From Rhizophagus irregularis (Eukaryota > Glomeromycota > Glomeromycetes > Glomerales > Glomeraceae), in the NCBI RefSeq assembly GCF_026210795.1, contig NC_089452.1, positions 868,001 through 932,000 of the forward strand: 64,000 nucleotides of DNA, read 5' to 3'. Positions within the stretch are counted from its first letter, which is position 1. Each line of letters begins with the position of its first letter. The notes under the pieces are model-generated. The model was given only the letters and a program-made list of their open reading frames with translations. It ran no database searches and was not told where the DNA came from. Below are positions 18,425 through 53,976 of this stretch, one piece after another. The position numbers and the translations under genes were made by a program.

Positions 18425-19514
18425 GTATATCGCCGTTATTTAAAAAATTATTTAATAATATAGGGCGTAAGTTAATTCTATTATTATTATTATTATTTAT
18501 TGTCATAATATTTACAAATAATTTAAACTAACTAAATTCTTCATTTAAAAAATTACTTAAAATATAGAGAGTAAGTTATTAATTTAATTCTATTATTACT
18601 TATTGTTATAATATTTGCATATAATTTAAACTAACTAAATTCTTTATTGAAATAATTATTTAATAATATAGAGAGTAAGTTATTTATTTAATTCTATTAT
18701 TACTTATAGTTATAATAATTTACATTTAATTTAAACTAACTAAATTAAAATTATTTAATAATATAGGGCGTAAGTTATTTATTTATCGCAGTTTTCAGAA
18801 TTCTGTGTACGTTGTGATGATTGAGTGATTATGATTGCAGGACGATTACATGATGATTACAGGACAACATAGTCCGATTTTTGTCCGGTAATTGTCCTGT
18901 AATCTAATAATTTTTTTATTAGATGATCTATAGGGGGGTAGCACAATTTTGAAAAGTGCGATAATTCTATTTTAACTTATTGTTATAATATTTACATACA
19001 ATTTTAAACTAAATTATTTTGTAATTTATTTTAGTTTGTAAGTTGTAAGTTATTTATTTAATTCTATTTTTACTTATTATTATAATAATATTTACATATA
19101 ATTTAGTTCGTAAGTTATAAGTTATTTATTTAATTCTATTATTACTATTTGTTATAATATTTACATGTAATTTAACTAACTAATTTCTTTATTTAAAAAT
19201 TATTTAATAATATAGAATGTAAGTTATTTATTTAATTCTATTATTACTTATTGTCATAATATTTATAATATTTAAATTAACTAAATTCTTTATTGAAAAA
19301 ATTATTTTGTAATTTATTTTAGTTGGTAAATTATAAGTTATTTATTTAATTTTAATTTTACTTATTGTTATAATATTTACATATAATTTAAACTAATCGC
19401 TTACTTGATTTTACTAGTAAAGAATTGAATGAAATTCTTGAAAGTGAAGATTCACATACTAGTAGTATAACTGAAGAATTAAATGATTGTATAATTAATG
19501 ATATGAATAATTAG
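18425..19514 (+). pseudogene. Relic of a microexon kinase gene (locus A)
   Basis: Eight 3-nt exons in the AG-NNN-GTAAG setting remain (first base given): GGC 18464, AGA 18568, AGA 18672, GGC 18767, TTT 19035, TTC 19107, AAT 19216, TTG 19323. The last array intron runs directly into kinase C-terminal coding sequence at about 19397 (R-L-L-D-F-T-S, matching the ends of genes B and C) and stops at TAG 19512-19514. The first exon and the kinase exons are missing, so a deletion has fused array to 3' end. A MITE sits inside one intron. The downstream hairpin repeats of genes B and C follow. It shows that the locus type existed in at least three copies here. Confidence 0.75.
18786..18961. mobile_element. 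176-bp TA-flanked MITE inside a microexon intron
   Basis: Ends TCGCAGTTTTCAGAATT and, as reverse complement of the right end, TCGCACTTTTCAAAATT. TA flanks at 18784-18785 and 18962-18963; removing the element restores the ordinary array intron sequence. Internally GATTACAGGACAA and TTGTCCTGTAATC form a hairpin. Tc1/mariner-like, non-autonomous. Confidence 0.7.
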
Positions 19515-30754: not shown

Positions 30755-33700
30755 ATGGCTTACAGTAATTATAGAGGTAAACGGCATATAGCATGAATAT
30801 TAAATACAAATTTGAATTATTCTAATTATTAAAACAAATTCATAATATAATAGAACTAGTTTCAAGAAACACTAATAAGAAATATAGAGGTAAATAACAT
30901 TAAAGTTTATATTATTTATTGGGAAAATATATATCTCGCCCTCCTGTATGATGTTAAAATTTCGCATTCTGCAACAAAAAAAGAAATTCTTAATATACAA
31001 CCTTTTTAAAAAAAATGTCTACTATATGTATTTTCCCCTGATCTACAAGTTTACTTAAAGCATCAAAGGTGGTTTTGAATGTCATTTTTAACTTATTTGA
31101 CAAAACTTTTTTGGGGTTTTTTTCGTTAAATCACGTTAAGTATTTAATTCTGGCCAGAATTAAATGATCGGCATACAAAATTCCTTTTTGGAACAAAGGC
31201 GAGATTTAATCATCACACATGGGACGAGATCTAAATTTACCCATATTTATTAAATAAAGTTAATTATAAACAATATGGTTATAATACTTTATGGATATTC
31301 ACATATAATTTAAACTAACTATTATTTATATTTAAAGACTTTTTAGATATTTCGCTTTGTAAGTTAATAGGTTATCTTATAATTGAATAATAATGATGGA
31401 GTTGCTTATTTTTGCTATTTTCTATATAACTAAATGATTTATCTGACGATTTATAATATTATTATAGTTGGTAAGTCATCTTTCATTTTTCACCACATTT
31501 TGCATTAATATTCAAATAACTAAATCCTTTACTTGAATAACAAATTAATAATTCACTATATTATAGATGATCGTAAGTTGTGGTATTTAATATATTATAT
31601 CTTTTAATATTTACGTATATTTTAGCTAACTATATTCTTTATTTAAATAATTAGTTTGTAAGTGATACATTCAATTTAGAACATATGCTTTTGTAATAGT
31701 ATTTACATCTAATTAATTTATAATTAATAATTACAGGGTGTAAGTTAATATGCTATCTATATTTCTATTATTTAGGCCGTTCAAACTTAATTGTTTGTTT
31801 AACATACAAACCCCTATATGTTTTTAAAAATCAAACTTTTATAAACGTATTATAACAACAGTACAACATAAAGTTATTTGTTTCAATGTCCCCTTTAAAT
31901 TTATAATTTCCAAAATTTCCATTTCTGGTTGTTAAACAAATAATTAAGTTAGAACAGCCTTATATAATTTAAGCTAACTAAATTCTTTACTATTAAAAAA
32001 TTATTTGACAATTTATTTTAGTCGGTAAGTTATAAGTTAGTTATTTAAATATATTTGATATAATTTAATCTTTTATTTAAAAAATTATATATAGGAGGCA
32101 AGTTATTTAATTCTCATATTTATATTTGCATATAATTAACATATAATTTAAACCAACTAAATTCTATATTTTTATGTTTAAAGCATATGTCTGTCGAGGT
32201 GAGTTATTTATTCAACTCTTATTGTTACATATTTATATAATATTTACACATAATTTAAATTAACTAAATTCTTTATTTGATAATTCATTTTAGATTGTAA
32301 GTTATAAATAATTTAATGGCTTTATTATTTCACACCACTGGTGCCCAACACTATAGTGGGTTTTTTTCATATTATATTAATAGAATCAATCGGCTTAACT
32401 AGACTACAAATAATAGAATAAAAAGTTAAGTTGCACGATATGACTATATTGTTGAACACCAGTGATGTGAAATATAAGTTTGTTATTTTTAAATTCTCTT
32501 ATTAGTATATATCAAACATATAATTTAAACTAACTAAATTCTTTATTTAAAAATTTATTTAATAATATAGGGAGTAAGTTATTTATTTAATTTCATTATT
32601 ATATATTTATATAATATTTACATATAATTTAAATTAAACTAACGAAATTCTTTATTTAAAAAATTATTTGGAAATTATTTTAGAATGTAAGTTATTTATT
32701 ACTTATCAAATTTATCATTTCACACCACTGGTATATGATACTTTCACAAAAACTATGGTCTAAACTAAACAAGTATATATTTGAAGTATATGCTACAGCA
32801 TTGGATACTGCAAAGTAAAAAATAATTATTATATGATATCAATAGAATTAGCTTAGCGAAACTACACATAATATAGAGTAAAAAGTTAAGTTACAAATAA
32901 AAAAAAATACAATGAATTACTATTGTGTCATGGGCACCAGGGTGGTGTGAAATATAATTTATTATCTTTAAATTAATTCTATTATTAAATATTTATATAT
33001 AATTTAAACTAACTGAATTCTTTATTTAAAAATAACTTAACAATATAGGGGGTAATGTTATTTATAATTCTATTAGTATATATTTATTTAATCTTTATAT
33101 ATAATTTAAATTAACTATATTCTTTATTAAAATATTATTTAATAATATAGAGGGTAAGTTTATTTATTAATTCTACTATTGCATATCTATATAATATTTA
33201 CATATAATTTTATTTAAAAAATTCTTTAATAAATTTATTTTAGATTGTAAGTTATTACTATTTATTTACTTTATTATTTTATATGTTTATATAATCATAT
33301 TTACGTATAATACTTAAAATAATTATTTTAATAATATAGGGAGTAAGTTATTTATTTAATTTTATTATCACAGCTTTATAATATAATATACATATAGTTT
33401 TATTAACTAAATTGTTTATTTAAAAAATTATTTTAGGATGTAAGTCATAAGTTATTTATTTAAGTTTATTATTATATACTTGCATAATATATACTTAATT
33501 ATAATTTGAACCAACTTAAAAAATTATTTGGCAATATAGGGGGTAAGTTATTATTGTAATTCTCATATTTATATATTTATATAATATTTACATATGATTT
33601 AAAAAAACTAATAAATCCTTTATCTGAAAAATTATTTGGGAATTTATTTTAGATTGTAAGTTATAAGTTATTTATTTAATTTTATAATATAGTATACATA

Positions 33701-36700
33701 TAATTTTTATTATTTAAACTAACTAATTCTTTTATTTAAAAAAATACTTGGGAATTTATTTTAGTTGGTAAGTTATAGGTTATTTATTTACTTCTATATT
33801 TATTTATATAATATCTAACACATAATTTAAACTAACTAAATTCTTTATTTAAATAATTATTTTAGAATGTAAGTTATAATTATTTATTGAAAATTACCAG
33901 TGGTGATGGACATCATACCAACATTATGGTGTGAATTGTGATATTTATAGCAATACCCTTATTTATTAAATTACATTATTACCTTCTACATATTTATATT
34001 ATATTTCAATACAATTTAACTAAATTCTTTATTTGAAAAACTATCCGCAATTTATTTTAGTTGGTAGGTTATAAATTATTTATTTATCAGTTATTATTAA
34101 TTTTACATATAAAATTTAAACTAAATTCTTTATTTAAAATATTATTTTAGAACGTAAGCCATATTATTTATTTATATCCATTATTGCTTATCTAATAATT
34201 ATATAATATTTAATTAACCAAATTATTTATTTAAAAATTGGTTGACAATATAGGGGGTAAGTTAATTATTTAATTCTCGTATTTAAATAATTGATATTTT
34301 ACATACGATTTAAACTAATTAAATTATTTAAAATATTATTTGTTAATATAGGGAGTAAGTTATTTATTTAATTCTAATTTTCGCGTACTAAATATAATTT
34401 AAACTAATTATTATATTCTTTATTTAAAAAATTATATGGAAATTTATTTTTAGTTGGTAGGTTATAAGTTATTTATTTAATTAATTTTTTACATATTTAT
34501 GCAAATTTACATGTAATCATATAATTTAAACTGACTAAATTCTTTATTTAAAAATTATTTGGTAATATAATATAGTTGGTAAGTCATATGATATTTAATT
34601 CTATTATTATTATTACATATTTTGTATAATATTGAGATATGATTTAAACTAACTAAATTTTTTATTTGAAAATTATTTAACAATATAGCAGGTAAGTTAC
34701 TTATTTAGTTCTATTATGAAATATTTGTATACAATTTAAACTAACTAAATTCTTTATTTAGATTGTAAGTTGTTTTATTTGATTCGATTATTATTACATG
34801 CTTATATAACATTTACACATAATTTTAAACTAAACTCTTATTTAAAATTTTTTTGATAATACAGCAAGTAAGTTATTTATTATTACATGCTTATCTAATA
34901 ATCATATATTATTTGTACTAAGATTTTTATTCACAAAATATTCAATAATGTATTGTACTAGGGCGTAAGTTATTTATTTAATTTTATTATTACATATTAT
35001 GAAAATTTGCATAAACTTAAATTAACTGAATTCTTTATTTAAAACTTATTTAATAATATAGTCTGTAAGTTATTTATTTAATTCCATCATTACAAATTCA
35101 TGTAATTTATGTAATATTTACATATAGTTCAAACTAACTAAATTCTTGATTTAAAATTATATAATGATATAGCACGTAAGTTATTTTTTTTTTAATTTTA
35201 TTATTTACGTATTATGCAAAATTTACATAAATTTAAATTAACTGAATTCTTTGTTTAAAACTTCTTATAAAAATATAGCACGTAAATTATTTATCTAATT
35301 CTACTATTATTACGTATTTATATAAAATTTGCATATAATTAAATTCTTTACTATTTAAAAAATTGTTTAATAATATAGGGAGTAAGTTATTTATTTGATT
35401 ACATATTTATAAAGTATTCACATATAATTTAAGCTAACTAAATTTTATTTAAAAATTATTTAATAATGTAGAGGGTAAGTTATTTAATTCTATTATTACA
35501 TATTTGTAAAATATTCATATGTAACCAAACTCTTTATTTAAAAATTGTTTAATAATATAGCACGTAAGTTAATTATTTAATTCTATTATTACTTATTGTT
35601 ATAATATTTGTATAATTTAAACTAACTAAGTTCTTTATTTAAAATTACTTAATAATATAGCACGTAAGTTATTTGTTTAATATTTATGTAAATTTTTTAT
35701 ATAATTTAAATTAACTAAATTCTTTGTTTAATAATATAGCACGTAAGTTAATTATTTATATTATTTACATATTGATTAAATCAACTAATAAATTCTTGAC
35801 TTAAATTATTTGGAAATTTATTTAGGACGTAAGTTATAAGTTATTTATTTAATTCTATTTTTATTGTTACTACATAATTATTTAATATTTGCACATAATT
35901 AAACCAATTAAATTCTTTGTTGAAAATTATTTAATAATATAGGAAGTAAGTTATTTATTTAAATCTATTATTACACAATTATACTACAATTTAAGCTAAC
36001 TAAAATTTATTTAAAATTATTTGGTAATTTATTTCAGTTGGTAAGTTATAAGTTATTTATTTAATTCTATTATTATATAATTATATTATATTTACATACA
36101 ATTTAAATTAACTAAATCCCTAACTAAAACTTATTTGTAATTTATTTTAGTTGGTAAGTCATAGTATTTACTTAATTTATTATTGCATATTTTTATATGA
36201 TCTATATTTGCATATAATTTAAACTAAGTTCTTCATTTAAAAATTATTTAATAATATAGGAAGTAAGTCATTTATTCAGTTTTGTTATATACTTATAAAT
36301 ATTCACATTTAATTTAATTAACTAATTTTCTTATTTAAACTTTAATTAACAATATAGAGGGTAAGTTATTTATTTAATTATATTATTATATATTTTATCC
36401 TATTTGTATAATTCAAACTAACTAAATTTTATTTAAAATTATCTGATAATTTATTTTAGATTGTAAGTCATAAGTTATTTATTATTTATTTATTTAATAT
36501 AATTTAAATTAACTAAATTCTTAATTAAAAAATGTACTATTTGTAATTTATTTTAGTTGGTAAGTTATACTACTGTATTTATTTAATATTATTACATATT
36601 AATATAATATTTACTTATAATTACTTTTTTAAAACACTATTTGTAATTTATTTTAGTCGGTAAGCTATAAGTTATTTATTTAATTTTTTTATTATTATAT

Positions 36701-38384
36701 ATTTACATTACATGTAATTTATTAAACTAACTAAATTTTTATATAAAAAATTATTTAGATAGTAAGTTATATTTGATTCTATTATTACGTATTTACATAA
36801 CATTTGCATGTAATTTAAACTAACTGAATTCTTTACAAAAAAATTTGATTTATTTTTAGTTTCTTGTAAGTTATTTTTTATTATGTTATCTATATAATAT
36901 TTATTTATAATTTTAATTAACTAAATCCCTATTTATAAAATTGTAATTTCAGATTCTTGTAAGTTATTTTTTATTATAATAGTTATTGTGATATTAATTT
37001 ATTGTTTTAACTAACTACACTCTTTATTAAAAAATATCTGATACTATAGTTGGTAAGTTATAATAATAGTTTATTATATATATACATTTATACAAAAACT
37101 TAGTTTTTATTTTGTTTTATGATATTTCTAATTATTGAATATTAGGGTTAGTAATTAGTATTAATTTTTTAATCTTATTTTGTATAATTTAATATGATTT
37201 CTAATGATTTACTTACTTATTTAAATATAGATTTGGAAATAGTGGAAATGCAATTTTAAATAAGTTTATTTTTGAAAAAAGATTAAAATGGATTCCTCAT
37301 GATAAACTTAAAAATATTAAATATCTTGATAAAGGAGGATTTGGTACAGTATATAAAGCTATTTGGTTAAATGAAAAACAAAATAAAGAAGTAGTTCTTA
37401 AATGTCTTAATAACTTGAATGAAAATTTAAATGTATTTTTGAATGAGGTATGAGTATGAATTTAATTTTAATTATAATTCACTTAAACTAATTATATTAT
37501 ATATGTTGAATTTTATTTTATAGTGGAAATATCATGAAAGTTGTTTAAATTCACCTGATATTATTGATTATTATGGATTTACAAAAGATCCGGATACTTT
37601 AAATTATATCGTCATAATGAATTATGCAAATAAAGGTAATTTAAGAGGAAATTTAACTAAAGTAGTTAAATATAATTGGAAACAAAAATTATTCATGTTG
37701 TATAAAATTATTTCTGGGATTTATGAAATGCATAATCAAAAACTTATTCATTGTGATTTACATGATGGTAATATTTTAAATCACAATAATAAAATGAATG
37801 GAGTGGAGGGAAAAAATGAAATTAATTGTGATTTAATTTTTGTTAGTGATTTAGGATTATGCCAACCTGTAAAGTCATCTTTAAAAAAAGGAGATATTTA
37901 TGGGGTTATACCATTTATAGCACCTGAAATTTTAAGAGGCAAGCACTATACTTTAGCTAGTGATATATATAGTTTTTCTATGATTATGTGGGAATTTACA
38001 TCTGGAGTTCCACCATTTAATGATAGAGCACATGATCTTCAACTTAGTTTAAGTATTTGTAGAGGTGAACGTCCTGAAGTTATTGAAAATACTCCACAAT
38101 GCTATATAGATTTAATGAAAAAATGTTGGGATGAAAATCCATTAAAAAGGCCATCTGCGTCAGAAGTGAAATATGCTATTGGAAATTGGATTTTCCGTCC
38201 TGATTATTTTAGTTATGAATTACAAGAAAACATTAAGGAATTTATGGATGCACCAATTGAGCATAATAATCTTGCTAATGAATCTCATTCACAAGCATGC
38301 TATACAAGTCGCTTACTTGATTTTACTAGTGGAAAATTGAATGAAATCATAGCAAATGAAGATTTGGATGATTGTAAAATTTGA
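30755..38384 (+). CDS. Microexon-array protein kinase B
   Basis: TKL-like kinase with its N-terminus assembled from microexons. Model: exon 1 30755-30776, 52 tiny exons (listed with the array 31347-37146), kinase exons 37231-37447 and 37524-38384; 1284 nt, 427 residues plus stop. Exon 1 ends in phase 1 and the model enters the kinase exon in frame (F-G-N-S-G-N). Kinase motifs: G-G-F-G-T-V-Y-K, V-V-L-K, H-C-D-L-H-D-G-N-I-L, D-L-G in place of DFG, I-A-P-E-I-L, D-I-Y-S-F, C-W-x-x-N-P-x-x-R-P-S. All catalytic residues remain, so it should be active. The C-terminal tail holds R-L-L-D-F-T-S. The kinase exons are certain; the exon 1 link and each microexon are inferred from splice signals and frame. 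Confidence 0.7.
30960..31210. repeat. Dispersed repeat in the first intron of kinase B
   Basis: This segment is similar to 47350-47540 (shared TCTACAAGTTTACTTAA and TCATTTTTAACTTATTT blocks), so it is a repeated, probably transposon-derived sequence. It carries the palindrome AATTCTGGCCAGAATT at about 31145. It lengthens the first intron to ~570 bp. Confidence 0.55.
31775..31959. mobile_element. PIF/Harbinger-like MITE in kinase B array
   Basis: TTA duplication on both sides (31772-31774, 31960-31962). Ends: GGCCGTTCAAACTTAATT and, reverse-complemented, GGCTGTTCTAACTTAATT, continuing TTTGTTTAAC. A related element sits in the matching intron of gene C at 49663-49893, so the insertion predates the B/C duplication. 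Confidence 0.75.
32328..32472. mobile_element. TTTCACACC-family MITE 1
   Basis: 145 bp, TA-flanked. Ends TTTCACACCACTGGTG and, inverted, TTTCACATCACTGGTG. Lies within a kinase B array intron. Tc1/mariner-like by TA duplication. Confidence 0.7.
32718..32952. mobile_element. TTTCACACC-family MITE 2
   Basis: 235 bp with ends TTTCACACCACTGGT and GGTGGTGTGAAA; right flank TA, left flank CA (mutated). It lies in the intron between microexons 32684 and 33049, which it expands to 362 bp. A shorter, decayed relative is at about 33890-33945. Confidence 0.65.
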
Positions 38385-49503: not shown

Positions 49504-52500
49504 ATGTCTGGAGGTAAAAGCACCAAGAAATCTAAGAAATCTAAGAAATCCGAAGGTAAATATAATATAAATAAAACATAAAAATTATTTAATAAACAAT
49601 ATACACGATATTCATACTTTTGTACGATTACAGGGCGTAAGTTAATCGATATTCTATTATTTGGTGTTCCAACTTAATTGTTTGTTTAACAAATACTCAC
49701 CCTCTGTTTTTTTAAAAAAAAAAATCTAAATTTTCTAAATATTCATAAAACAACATATATGTTTTAAATTTGAATTGTTATTTTCCGAGATTTTCTGAAA
49801 TTTTCCGAATTTCAATTTTCACAATGAAAACCTCACTCCCCTTAAACTTTCCGAAATTTTAGTTGTTAAACAAGCAATTAAGTTGGAACAGCCTTATACA
49901 ATTTAAATTAACCAAATTTTTTTTTTATTAAAAATTATTTAAATTATTTGATAATTTACATCAGTCGGTAAGTCATAAGTTATTTATTTAATCTTATTAT
50001 TCCATATTTATATACTACTTACATATTCGCTAAATTCTTTATTTTCATGTAATATTTATATATATTTACTTAAACTAATTATATTTTGATTCTAAAAATT
50101 ATATTTTAGATGGTAAGTTATATTAATTTGATTTCATTGCTATATGTTTACATATAATTTAAACTATATTATTTATTTTTGAGCAGTAAATAGCACGGTT
50201 AGCACGGTTAGCACGGTTAGTACGATTAGCACGGGACGTAAGTTATTTATTTTAAAACTCTATTATTAGATATTTAATATTCACATAATTTAAACAAACG
50301 AACTAAATTTTTTATTTAAAAATTAATTTTAGCACGTAAGTTATAAATAACTTACATACTTTACTATTTCACACCACTGGTTCCTCATGTTCGATCGATT
50401 AGGGTAGTGATCAACAGATTAATTCAATGTTGGGGCCAATAACTATTGCCTAACTGAACAAAGTTTTATACTAGTACTCGTTTTTTTAGTGGTGTGAAAT
50501 ATAATTTTGGATATATTTTTATATATAATTTTAACTAACTAATTTTTTTAAATAAAAATTATTTTTCTCGTATTTACATAATTAATATTTTACATATAAT
50601 TAGAGAGTAAGTTATTTTTACCTATTTATATAAAATATATATACACATATAATTTAAACTAACTAAACCATTTTTTGCTAATTATTTAATAATATAGGAA
50701 GTAAGTTATTATTTAATTCTATTATTGCGTGCTCATATAATATTCATATATTATTGTATTCTTTATTAAAAAATTATTAATAATTTGTAGGGCGTAAGTT
50801 ATTTATTTAATTTATTGTTACAAAAGTTTACATATACGTTAAAATTAAATGAATTCTTTATTTAAAACTTATTTAATAATATAGTTCGTAAGTCATTATT
50901 TAATTCTATTATTTACATATTTCTTTAATATTTGCATATAATTTAAACTAACTAAATTTTTATCTAAATTTTATATATAAAAATATAGCAAGTAAGTTAT
51001 TTATTACATATTTACAAAGTATTTATATGTAATTTATGCTAACTAAATTTTTTATTTAATAATATAGAGGGTAAAGTTATTTAATTTTGTTATCACATTT
51101 TTATAAAATACTTTCGCATATAACTAAACTCTTTATTTAAAAATTACTTAATAATATAGCAAGTAAGTTATTTATTTAATTCCAACATTACATATTTATT
51201 TAATATTTATGTAATTTAAACTAACTAAATTCTTTTGTTTAAAAATTTAGCTCGTAAGTTATTTTGTTTACTACATATTTATGTGAAATTTACATATAAT
51301 TTAATTAACTAAATCCTTTTATAAAAATTGTTTAATATTATAGTTAGTAAGTTATTTATTTAGTTTCGTATTATATATTTATATAATATTTACATTTATA
51401 TTAATTAAATTCTTGGTTTAAAACTATTTAAATAATATAGAGAGTAAGTTATCTATTTAAATTTATTATAAATTTATATAATATCTACACATAATTTAAA
51501 CTAATTAAATTCTTTAACAATGTAGGGCGTAAGTTATTCATTTAATTCTATTGTTGTTACACATTTATATAATGTCACATATAATTTAATTAACTAAATT
51601 TTTCGTTTAAAAATTATTTCAATAATATAGAAGGTAAGTTATCTATTAACTCTATTATTACATTATTTATACATATAATTTAAACTAACCTAAATTCTTC
51701 AAATTAAAAATTATTTGTAATTTATTTTAGTTGGTAAGTTATAAATTATTTATTTTTTTTTACTATTACATATTTATATAATCTAAACTAACCAAATACT
51801 TTATTTAAAAATCATTTAATAATATAGGAGGTAAAACATTTATTTAATTATTATATATTTGTGAAATATTCACATAATCTAAATTAACTAAATTTTTATT
51901 TAAAAAATTCATTAATAATGTAGAGGGTAAGTTATTTATTTAATTCTATTATTATTTATTTACGTACTGACATTTATATATATTTTTAAATTTTTATTTA
52001 AAAAATTATAAAAATTATTTCAGATTGTAAGTTATTAGTTATATATTTAATTCTATTATTACAATTTAAATTTTAACTAATTCCCTTATTAAAAAATTTA
52101 TTTGTAATTTATTTTAGTTGGTAAGTTATAAGTTATTTGTTTAATTCGTTAATATGTTCATATAATATTCACATATAATCTAATCTAACTAATTACTTTA
52201 TTTAAAACATTAATTGTAATTTATTTTAGTTGGTAAGTTATAAAATTTATTTAATTTTATTACTGTATATTTAATTATATAATTTGTTAGTTAAACTAAC
52301 TAAATCCTTTATTTGAAAAATTATTTAGACGGTAAGCTATAATTCTATATTACATATTTATATATAATTTTAGATTAATTAAATTCATTATTAAAAAATT
52401 TGGTTCATTTTAGACTCTTGTAAGTTATTTTTTTTTTTATTATGATATTTATGTAATATTCGTTTATAATTTTAATTAACTAAATTTCTATTTTTTAATA

Positions 52501-53976
52501 TTAAAATTTACATTAGATTCTTGTAAGTTATTTTTTATTATGATATTTTTGTGATATTAATTTATTAGTTTCAACTAACTAAACTTATTTAAAAATAACT
52601 GGAAATATAGTTGGTGAGTTTATAATAAATTATTGATCATTATATATTTTACGCAAAAATCACTAAGGTTTTTTATTTTATTATATTCCGAATTAAAATT
52701 TTAGAGTAAGTATTAATTTTATTATTTTATTATTTTTTTTTTTAATTTAAATATGATTTTTTAATTTATTTAATTTATTATTTAAAAATATAGATTTGGA
52801 AAAAGTGGAAATAAAATTTTAAATAAATTTATTTCTGAAAAGAGATTAAAATGGATTCCTTATAAAAAATTTCAAGATGTTGTATATCTTGATAAAGGAG
52901 GATTTGGTACCGTGTATAAAGCTATTTGGTTAAATAAAGATAAAAACAAAAAAGTAGTTCTCAAGTGTCTTAATAACTTGAATGAAAATTTAAATGAATT
53001 TTTGGATGAGGTATTTAGTATATGCAATTATGACAATATTGATTTTTTAAATTTTAATTATAATTTTATTTAAACTATATATCTAATTTTTTATTTTTAA
53101 TAGTGGAAATATCATGAAATTTGTTCAGGTTCACTTGATATTATTAATTTATATGGATTTACAAAAGATTCAAATACCCCGAATTATATGGTGGTGATAG
53201 ATTATGCAAATAATGGTAATTTAAGAAAAAATTTATCTAAAGTAATTACAAATGATTGGAAACAAAGGTTAAATATGCTGTATAAAATTATTTCTGGGCT
53301 TTATGAAATACATAAACAAAATCTTATTCATTGTGATTTACATGATGGCAATATTTTAATTCATGTTAAAAAAGGTAAAAAGAAGGAAAAAGATGATGTT
53401 AATAGTAATTTAGTTTTTATTAGTGATTTAGGATTGTGTCATCCTGTAAAATCTTCTTTAAAAGAAGGTGAAATTTTTGGAATTATACCATTTATGGCAC
53501 CTGAAATTTTAAGAGGAAAACCTTATACTCCAGCTAGTGATATATATAGTTTTTCTATGATCATGTGGGAATTTACATCTGGAATTTCACCATTTATTAA
53601 TAGAGCACATGATCTTCAACTTACTTTAAGTATTTGCGGAGGTGACCGTCCTGAAATTATTGAAAATACTCCACAATGTTATGTTGATTTAATGAAAAAA
53701 TGTTGGAATGAAGACCCATTAAAAAGGCCATCTGCATCAGATGTGAAATATGCTATTGGAAATTGGATTTTCAATTTTGATTATAATGAAGAAACAAATG
53801 AAGAAATAAAAAGCAATGTTATGGAATTTATAAATGCACCAATTGGGAATAATGATCTTGCTACTGAATTTCATCCACAAGCACATTATACAAGTCGATT
53901 ACTTGATTTTACTAGTGATAAATTGAATGAAAACCTAGCAATTGAAAATCTGGATGATTGTGAAGTTAAAATTTGA
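49504..53976 (+). CDS. Microexon-array protein kinase C
   Basis: Paralogue of kinase B. Model: exon 1 49504-49555 (lysine-rich, K-S-K-K-S-K-K-S-E), 28 small exons (listed with the array 49634-52705), kinase exons 52794-53010 and 53104-53976; 1278 nt, 425 residues plus stop. The array carries phase 1 from exon 1 to a 1-nt exon, after which F-G-K-S-G-N-K opens the kinase part. Kinase motifs: G-G-F-G-T-V-Y-K, V-V-L-K, H-C-D-L-H-D-G-N-I-L, D-L-G, M-A-P-E-I-L, D-I-Y-S-F, R-P-S. Array-encoded residues before the kinase exon match gene B (V-G-x-D-F-V-D-x-S-Y-S-F). The kinase exons are certain; the array exons need transcript proof. Confidence 0.72.
49663..49893. mobile_element. PIF/Harbinger-like MITE in kinase C array
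   Basis: 231 bp; ends GGTGTTCCAACTTAATTG and, inverted, GGCTGTTCCAACTTAATTG, with TTTGTTTAAC within. Right flank TTA, left flank TTT. Same family and same relative place as 31775-31959 in gene B. Confidence 0.7.
50367..50499. mobile_element. TTTCACACC-family MITE 3
   Basis: 133 bp, TA-flanked, ends TTTCACACCACTGG and GTGGTGTGAAA. In the intron after microexon 50333. Confidence 0.65.

Follow-up and report, generated by a model that had tools for sequence, protein, structure and literature searches.

The 64,000-nucleotide window analysed here (positions 868001–932000 of contig 24 of Rhizophagus irregularis) contains a protein kinase gene, at 30755–38384 on the forward strand, whose N-terminal part is predicted to be divided among dozens of consecutive exons, nearly all of them a single codon long. 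We consider it highly probable that these are real micro-exons, joined in turn into a diversifying kinase N-terminal domain that is built codon by codon, and the sequence evidence for splicing and translation of the array is strong. Judged on that evidence, this is a real and apparently undescribed gene architecture, in which micro-exon genes, here a large family of kinases in a mycorrhizal symbiont, are reduced to a single codon per exon. A kinase gene with its N-terminus split into single-codon-sized exons was also what a preliminary description of this DNA proposed, and it remains the best reading in the light of exon lengths, stop avoidance, codon usage and recurrence across a family; the gene structure in that description stands, but the genome-wide family, the hypervariability of the triplets and the second exon had been overlooked. 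All genome-wide counts given below refer to the 146.7-Mb genome in 32 contigs.

Upstream of the kinase lies a very A+T-rich run of approximately 6 kb in which AG, three bases and GTAAG recur. This pattern is real: the window has 73 copies of AGNNNGTAAG, of which 41 lie inside 31466–37057, compared to a mean of 3.44 and a maximum of 8 in 100 shuffles. The gene is modelled as exon 1 (22 nucleotides, nt), exon 2 (30 nt), 52 micro-exons and two kinase exons, and the joined exon list gives a coding sequence of 1314 nt with the stop codon, or 437 amino acids, with no internal stop. Our exon list arrives at exactly the numbers first proposed, 52 micro-exons of which 46 have three bases; the others measure 12, 6, 15, 6, 6 and 1 nt. 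Exon 1 and the 52 micro-exons together supply 206 nt, the figure that had been predicted ahead of the kinase exon, exon 2 not being counted, and the array contains 20 different triplets where at least 17 had been reported. The coding sequence is divisible by three and without stops, as had been claimed, but the length given for it, 1284 nt, was wrong and becomes 1314 nt once exon 2 is added. The borders of the 52 micro-exons are AG/GT throughout, apart from one GC donor (GAG unit, 32095).

All features of the model lie on the forward strand. Exon 1 (30755..30776) encodes MAYSNYR plus one base and ends in phase 1. We compared it with the window's second family gene and with four longer stretches upstream of kinases (L069–L072), in which array and kinase exon were seen together: exon 1 of L071 is also 22 nt long, and the first exons of the second gene (computed) and of L069 and L072 (by eye) likewise end in phase 1. 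Exon 2 (30860..30889; acceptor ACTAG, donor GTAAAT, in frame) was included because an ACTAG acceptor and an in-frame exon stand behind exon 1 in L071 and L072; the L071/L072 exon and acceptor, the L069 exon-2 donor and the start motif and insert-like sequence described below were judged by eye. A 12-nt micro-exon (31347..31358) comes next, and the sequence after it matches the one that follows the first unit (CTC) of the L070/L071 array. The pattern scan and exon list then place the array of 46 three-nt and some longer exons at 31468..37052. The three-nt exons have their first bases at 31468, 31655, 31737, 32022, 32095, 32294, 32571, 32684, 33049, 33151, 33244, 33340, 33437, 33540, 33653, 33765, 33866, 34061, 34151, 34254, 34352, 34454, 34576, 34689, 34762, 34865, 34962, 35062, 35173, 35279, 35379, 35472, 35561, 35661, 35740, 35826, 35943, 36038, 36151, 36260, 36358, 36460, 36557, 36657, 36759 and 37050. 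Between them stand ATGATC (6 nt, 31567..31572), a 15-nt exon with a GTGAG donor (32184..32198), TTTCTT (6 nt, 36860..36865) and ATTCTT (6 nt, 36953..36958), the last position being occupied by ATTCTT in several relatives and by CTT in many. A 1-nt exon (37146..37146; G, donor GTTAGT) leads from phase 1 to phase 2 and is followed by the first kinase exon (37231..37447, beginning A|TTT GGA AAT) and by the second, which reaches the stop codon (37524..38384, profile match to PF07714/PF00069). The 1-nt exon is needed because exon 1 and the array are in phase 1 and the kinase exon in phase 2; by the same token, the kinase exon would fall out of frame if exon 1 or exon 2 were spliced to it directly. 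The kinase exceeds the curated cut-offs of PF07714 (137.5 vs 23.1 bits) and PF00069 (130.6 vs 31.7 bits), and 37231–38384 is 99% identical to the R. irregularis protein P0001.

The exon length was assessed with unit finders that do not restrict it. In six arrays, 234 of 253 donors have an AG 3 nt upstream and 13 have it 6 nt upstream; an AG at 1 nt as well, in 34 donors, is a product of AGN triplets. Across 38 stretches the AG lies 3 nt (529) or 6 nt (16) upstream of 545 of the 549 GTAAGT[TC]A donors, the four exceptions standing at 12 nt (the window gene, in frame), 8 nt (the second gene, where an acceptor further up yields an in-frame 51-nt exon), 17 nt (L069) and 2 nt (L066, where a donor just upstream gives a triplet). 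The array introns (n = 705, median 96 nt) follow no such frame rule and fall into the three length classes as 232, 259 and 214. A branch-like motif was found in 573 of them (CTAAC 337, CTAAT 134, TTAAC 96, CTGAC 5, TTGAC 1) and none in 132, in agreement with the CTAAC-type branch sites earlier noted before most acceptors. Alignment of 11 collinear units from the two window genes has 153 gapped columns in introns and zero in exons.

A phase-1 reading across junctions forbids AA, AG or GA after a triplet whose last base is T. We examined junctions between neighbouring units 55–140 nt apart (60–140 in the first unit set), a limit which excludes units beside insertions or unrecognised donors, using unit finders that take only 3- or 6-nt exons; the pooled tests were made without L039, L040, L042 and L046, which overlap other stretches, and L051, which has no array. 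Phase-1 stops arise at 1 of 705 neighbouring junctions, where shuffles give 26.5 (lowest 11), and in the first unit set at 1 of 650, where shuffles within loci give 20.6 (lowest 10). Pairs that skip one unit have 15 in 645, compared to 22.9 expected and matched by 2% of shuffles, and at distances of 3, 4 and 5 units there is no avoidance (22/587, 22/531 and 13/481 vs 19.0, 17.0 and 15.6). Since the units are tandem relatives, shuffles overstate their independence, and the contrast between distance 1 and distances 3–5 on the same units serves as the control. The non-stop junctions T|AT (36 vs 41.5 expected) and T|GG (32 vs 27.9) are not avoided, and further controls of this kind gave T|TT 61 vs 41.2 and T|GT 0 vs 2.5. 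Over the whole genome the two-by-two counts are T|AR 1, T|GG 84, V|AR 169 and V|GG 206 (R, A or G; V, any base but T), with 69 T|AR expected (p = 5e-18); these counts partly contain the units of the junction test, and the two tests overlap. Synonymous codon usage, compared with that of the kinase exons, matches in phase 1 (+0.01) and departs in phase 0 (-0.54) and phase 2 (-0.40). A phase 0 reading was rejected for its poor fit in codon usage and for stops in 13 of 753 triplets under a looser unit definition, and a phase 2 reading for stops at 105 of 650 junctions, against 83.4 in shuffles.

The window gene is one member of a family. Genome-wide, the unit pattern with up to two mismatches has 2,478 sites (1228 + 1250), compared to 0 + 1 in a reversed control. 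A search of the genome with the kinase, in which 114 candidates were scored, gave 156 matches, and the best 30 of these (L039–L068, including the window's own two kinase genes, L039 and L046) were inspected. An array ends within 1.3 kb upstream in 29 of these 30, and in the same 29 a single base (A in 26, G in 2, T in 1) forms the last exon ahead of the kinase; in L040 the kinase exon is apparently one codon longer. The sole kinase of the 30 without an array, L051, was considered as a processed copy, which was rejected on finding unrelated coding-like sequence upstream. One kind of unit pair lies within 15 kb upstream of one of the 114 listed kinases, on the same strand, in 58 of 84 cases, and downstream in 3; of the 26 other pairs, two (C2:19–23 kb) and three (C11:882–889 kb) precede a more distant or broken kinase, the unit pairs at 881.7–895.3 kb of contig 11 lying upstream of a kinase reduced to its C-terminal end. 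Seven stretches around pattern hits were read as well: array and kinase match occur together in C1a, C1b, C1d and C2a, whereas C2b has an array with its kinase beyond the stretch (C2:709145), C1c an array without a kinase inside the stretch, and C1e one lone unit-like fragment. The kinase family probably comprises over 100 genes. A start motif like A-L-x-D-W-F was found in 8 of 12 arrays read, those of the second window gene, L069, L072 and C1d being without it, and most array-kinase junctions would read F-E-F-G-K-S or similar.

The second family gene of the window (49504..53967, + strand) has exon 1 at 49504–49555, an array at 49634–52613 with 24 three-nt exons, two 6-nt exons and one 51-nt exon, a 1-nt exon at 52705, a first kinase exon at 52794–53010 and a second kinase exon, placed by tblastn only, to at least 53967; its frame, as computed, is open through the first kinase exon. 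The 51-nt exon (50187–50237) differs from the other array exons read in consisting largely of a 9-nt repeat that is in frame (STV STV). A relic at 18464..19496 (+ strand) consists of a short array (18464–19325; seven units found by scan and an eighth by eye) joined directly to the last kinase exon (19392–19496), the rest of the gene being missing. We also noted insert-like sequence in the array introns 31740–32021, 32297–32570, 32687–33048, 33869–34060 and 50336–50603, some of it with CACACCACTGG-type ends, the adjoining micro-exons being intact. Elsewhere, L073 (1–2943; C11:894400–897342) holds the end of an approximately 14-kb array, beyond which come insert-like sequence and a kinase reduced to its C-terminal end, as in a broken family member, and L022 (1430–1570) holds a lone unit-like fragment, AG-GGA-GTAAG, with no array nearby, perhaps filler DNA copied from an array.

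The triplets vary far more than the introns that flank them. Unit pairs were picked by 55 intron bases and compared at other, held-out bases: among 66 disjoint pairs that had no more than one mismatch, the three triplet bases differ in 10.6, 10.6 and 22.7% and held-out intron bases in 1.8–2.2% (odds ratio 8.2, p = 1e-13), and across five bins ordered by increasing divergence the ratio of triplet to intron difference declines from 7.2 to 2.4. The triplets GGT, GGA, CTT, AGC and TTC occur beside nearly identical introns located on different chromosomes, and 719 three-nt units contain 48 kinds of triplet. The nonsynonymous proportion of differences (pN) exceeds the synonymous (pS) in all four divergence bins (pooled 0.41 vs 0.29, p = 0.009; the bins are not independent). 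Triplet bases 1 and 3, which would be codon positions 2 and 1, are more variable than base 2, codon position 3, significantly so in three of five bins. One block duplication was seen as well. L070 (4218–7585) contains two tandem copies of a stretch of approximately 1.68 kb with 15 listed units, and the 1 kb found in register is 100% identical between them, which indicates that codons are added in whole units.

Several observations weigh against the coding interpretation of the array or against parts of it. The single junction stop, ATT|AGA, falls in L065, and by position the sole genome-wide T|AR case is that same gene. Stops are scarce in phase 0 too (2 of 719 triplets vs 25.2 expected from independent columns), which we put down to a general rarity of TA- and TG-triplets. 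The spliced N-terminus has no annotated relative at E ≤ 0.001 among 18 candidates. Between the two window genes, identity across the 11 collinear units is no higher in exons than in introns (30/37 vs 831/958 aligned columns, p = 0.32), and purifying selection on the 3' units between these genes was dropped as unsupported. Some donors of the window gene are weak (GC at 32095, GTAATG at 33049 and GTTAGT at 37146, that of the 1-nt exon), and L069 has a 17-nt first array exon out of frame and no visible exon-2 donor. The public gene models, too, disagree with the array structure: among the matches listed (120 of 1033) they mostly leave the array out and are inconsistent, 51 lacking the start motif of the kinase exon and 51 having at most 20 residues before it in a rough motif test. 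Finally, in the closest bin pS is 0.10 where introns differ by 0.009, such that synonymous changes are raised as well.

Four Rhizophagus proteins (P0023, P0082, P0091 and P0105) have N-termini that resemble array read-outs by eye, in differing frames. P0082 is 98% identical over 303 residues to the L045 gene with its N-terminus in phase 1, and that of P0023 is in phase 0; as the frames disagree, we regarded such read-outs as artefacts of gene prediction and gave them no weight as transcript evidence. Such N-termini may mark where automatic annotation met an array.

The public models lend some support to a very different account, in which decaying intron copies form a minisatellite, the true start of the gene is close to the kinase exon and no triplet ever enters the mRNA. 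Most models among the matches listed do start in or just before the kinase exon, the units are tandem relatives of one sequence of approximately 100 nt, and relic arrays exist. A minisatellite, however, offers no reason for stops to be avoided between neighbours in one phase only, for the two-by-two genome count or for the codon usage, nor for a 1-nt exon that matches the phase difference in 29 of 30 genes, and we regard this account as very improbable. Equally little speaks for introners, transposon-like introns inserted side by side, and we find this origin hardly credible. Introners with target-site duplications of 3–9 bp are known (PMC9860276), the triplet would be a 3-bp duplication of this type, and the lone fragment in L022 sits in sequence without other units. 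But a target-site duplication predicts equal triplets on either side, and triplets are of 48 kinds and differ even between units with near-identical introns; moreover, unit pairs are concentrated upstream of listed kinases (58 of 84, with 3 downstream) and a 1.68-kb block of units was duplicated in tandem.

The remaining alternatives accept that the array is coding. Transcripts might take different subsets of the frame-neutral triplets, making a combinatorial protein library from one gene; all array exons of the window gene but the last are multiples of three, such that skipping keeps the frame, and the mild stop shortage at skip-one junctions (15 vs 22.9) speaks in its favour. At distances 3–5, however, stops are at chance level and wide skipping would often create them, for which reason we think alternative splicing on this scale rather unlikely, though single exons may be skipped. 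It is a more serious possibility, if one we lean against, that the triplets owe their hypervariability to local mutation or conversion bias and not to selection for diversity. With pS far above intron divergence, amino-acid selection alone does not explain the variation, and many differing pairs change two or three bases together (97 and 59 of 382; pairs not disjoint); against this, pN exceeds pS in all four bins and variability is higher at triplet bases 1 and 3 than at base 2. Part of the hypervariability may come from such a bias, and selection as its cause is something that we infer, as is the splicing of the RNA in the form modelled.

If the array is spliced codon by codon, as we favour, each intron of approximately 96 nt would be removed via its own GTAAG donor, CTAAC-type branch site and AG, and the three bases between introns would be kept. 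From exons 1 and 2, in phase 1, each codon would be formed from the last base of one triplet and the first two of the next, until the final 1-nt exon brings in phase 2 ahead of the kinase exon. With just 3 nt between them, neighbouring splice sites could scarcely be occupied at the same time, which implies that introns are removed in some order; the array introns are short enough for intron definition, as fungal introns are. The product would be a kinase with a variable N-terminal segment of which approximately 25 to 80 residues come from the array, often beginning like A-L-x-D-W-F, mostly ending like F-E-F-G-K-S and variable in between, and this segment would most likely serve the kinase in recognition or docking. 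Given the homology among the introns of one array, unequal crossing-over or conversion between them could add, remove or move codons with the frame kept.

Parts of this architecture have parallels. Schistosome micro-exon genes (MEGs) also have many short exons in a row and variable products, but MEG exons are longer; here nearly all are one codon and the introns are homologous tandem copies. The HNWD/HET WD40 genes of fungi, which encode signalling or recognition proteins, undergo concerted evolution and diversifying selection, and their homogenised repeats have a few hypervariable codons; there the repeat codes for protein, whereas here the repeat is the intron and the hypervariable codon the exon. 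In aphids, the available part of one account describes bicycle genes with many small internal exons, nearly all of one phase, that encode fast-evolving proteins, and a 'megacycle' gene with more than 100 micro-exons for about 2000 amino acids (PMC9168663). These differ in having up to about 20 codons per exon in megacycle, compared to one here, and phase 2 instead of phase 1, and that part of the account mentions neither a kinase nor homologous tandem introns (PMC9168663). Exons of 1 nt that are required for frame occur in Arabidopsis APC11 and Fusarium CYP621A, the latter being described as the second example and the first fungal one (PMC12940212); here such an exon is predicted from sequence in 29 of 30 related genes of one genome, behind a three-nt array. 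Among expanded R. irregularis genes the commonest motif is reported to be PF07714 (PMC6123716), and those kinases share the domain of the present family; the part of that paper available has no mention of single-codon exon arrays. Among the open-licence PubMed Central papers listed, screened by title and start of abstract, we found no description of such arrays in Rhizophagus or any fungus, which does not prove that there is none.

Should transcripts confirm the model, there would be genes with dozens of consecutive single-codon exons. They would test how the spliceosome handles splice sites three bases apart, with the order of removal and intron definition directly testable, and would raise the number of known 1-nt exons several-fold. 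Wide mis-annotation of N-termini would come to light in a major kinase family that has expanded in mycorrhizal fungi, and a mechanism for protein diversification would be at hand. Tentatively, and with a little less than even confidence, we propose a codon-cassette system, in which homogenised introns act as recombination seams at which single codons are gained, lost, moved and replaced, giving a hypervariable N-terminal segment for the recognition of host, partner or self and non-self in a large kinase family of an obligate symbiont. Diversification would then lie in the architecture of the gene and not in protein repeats, and the gene would be an evolvable string of one-codon exons.

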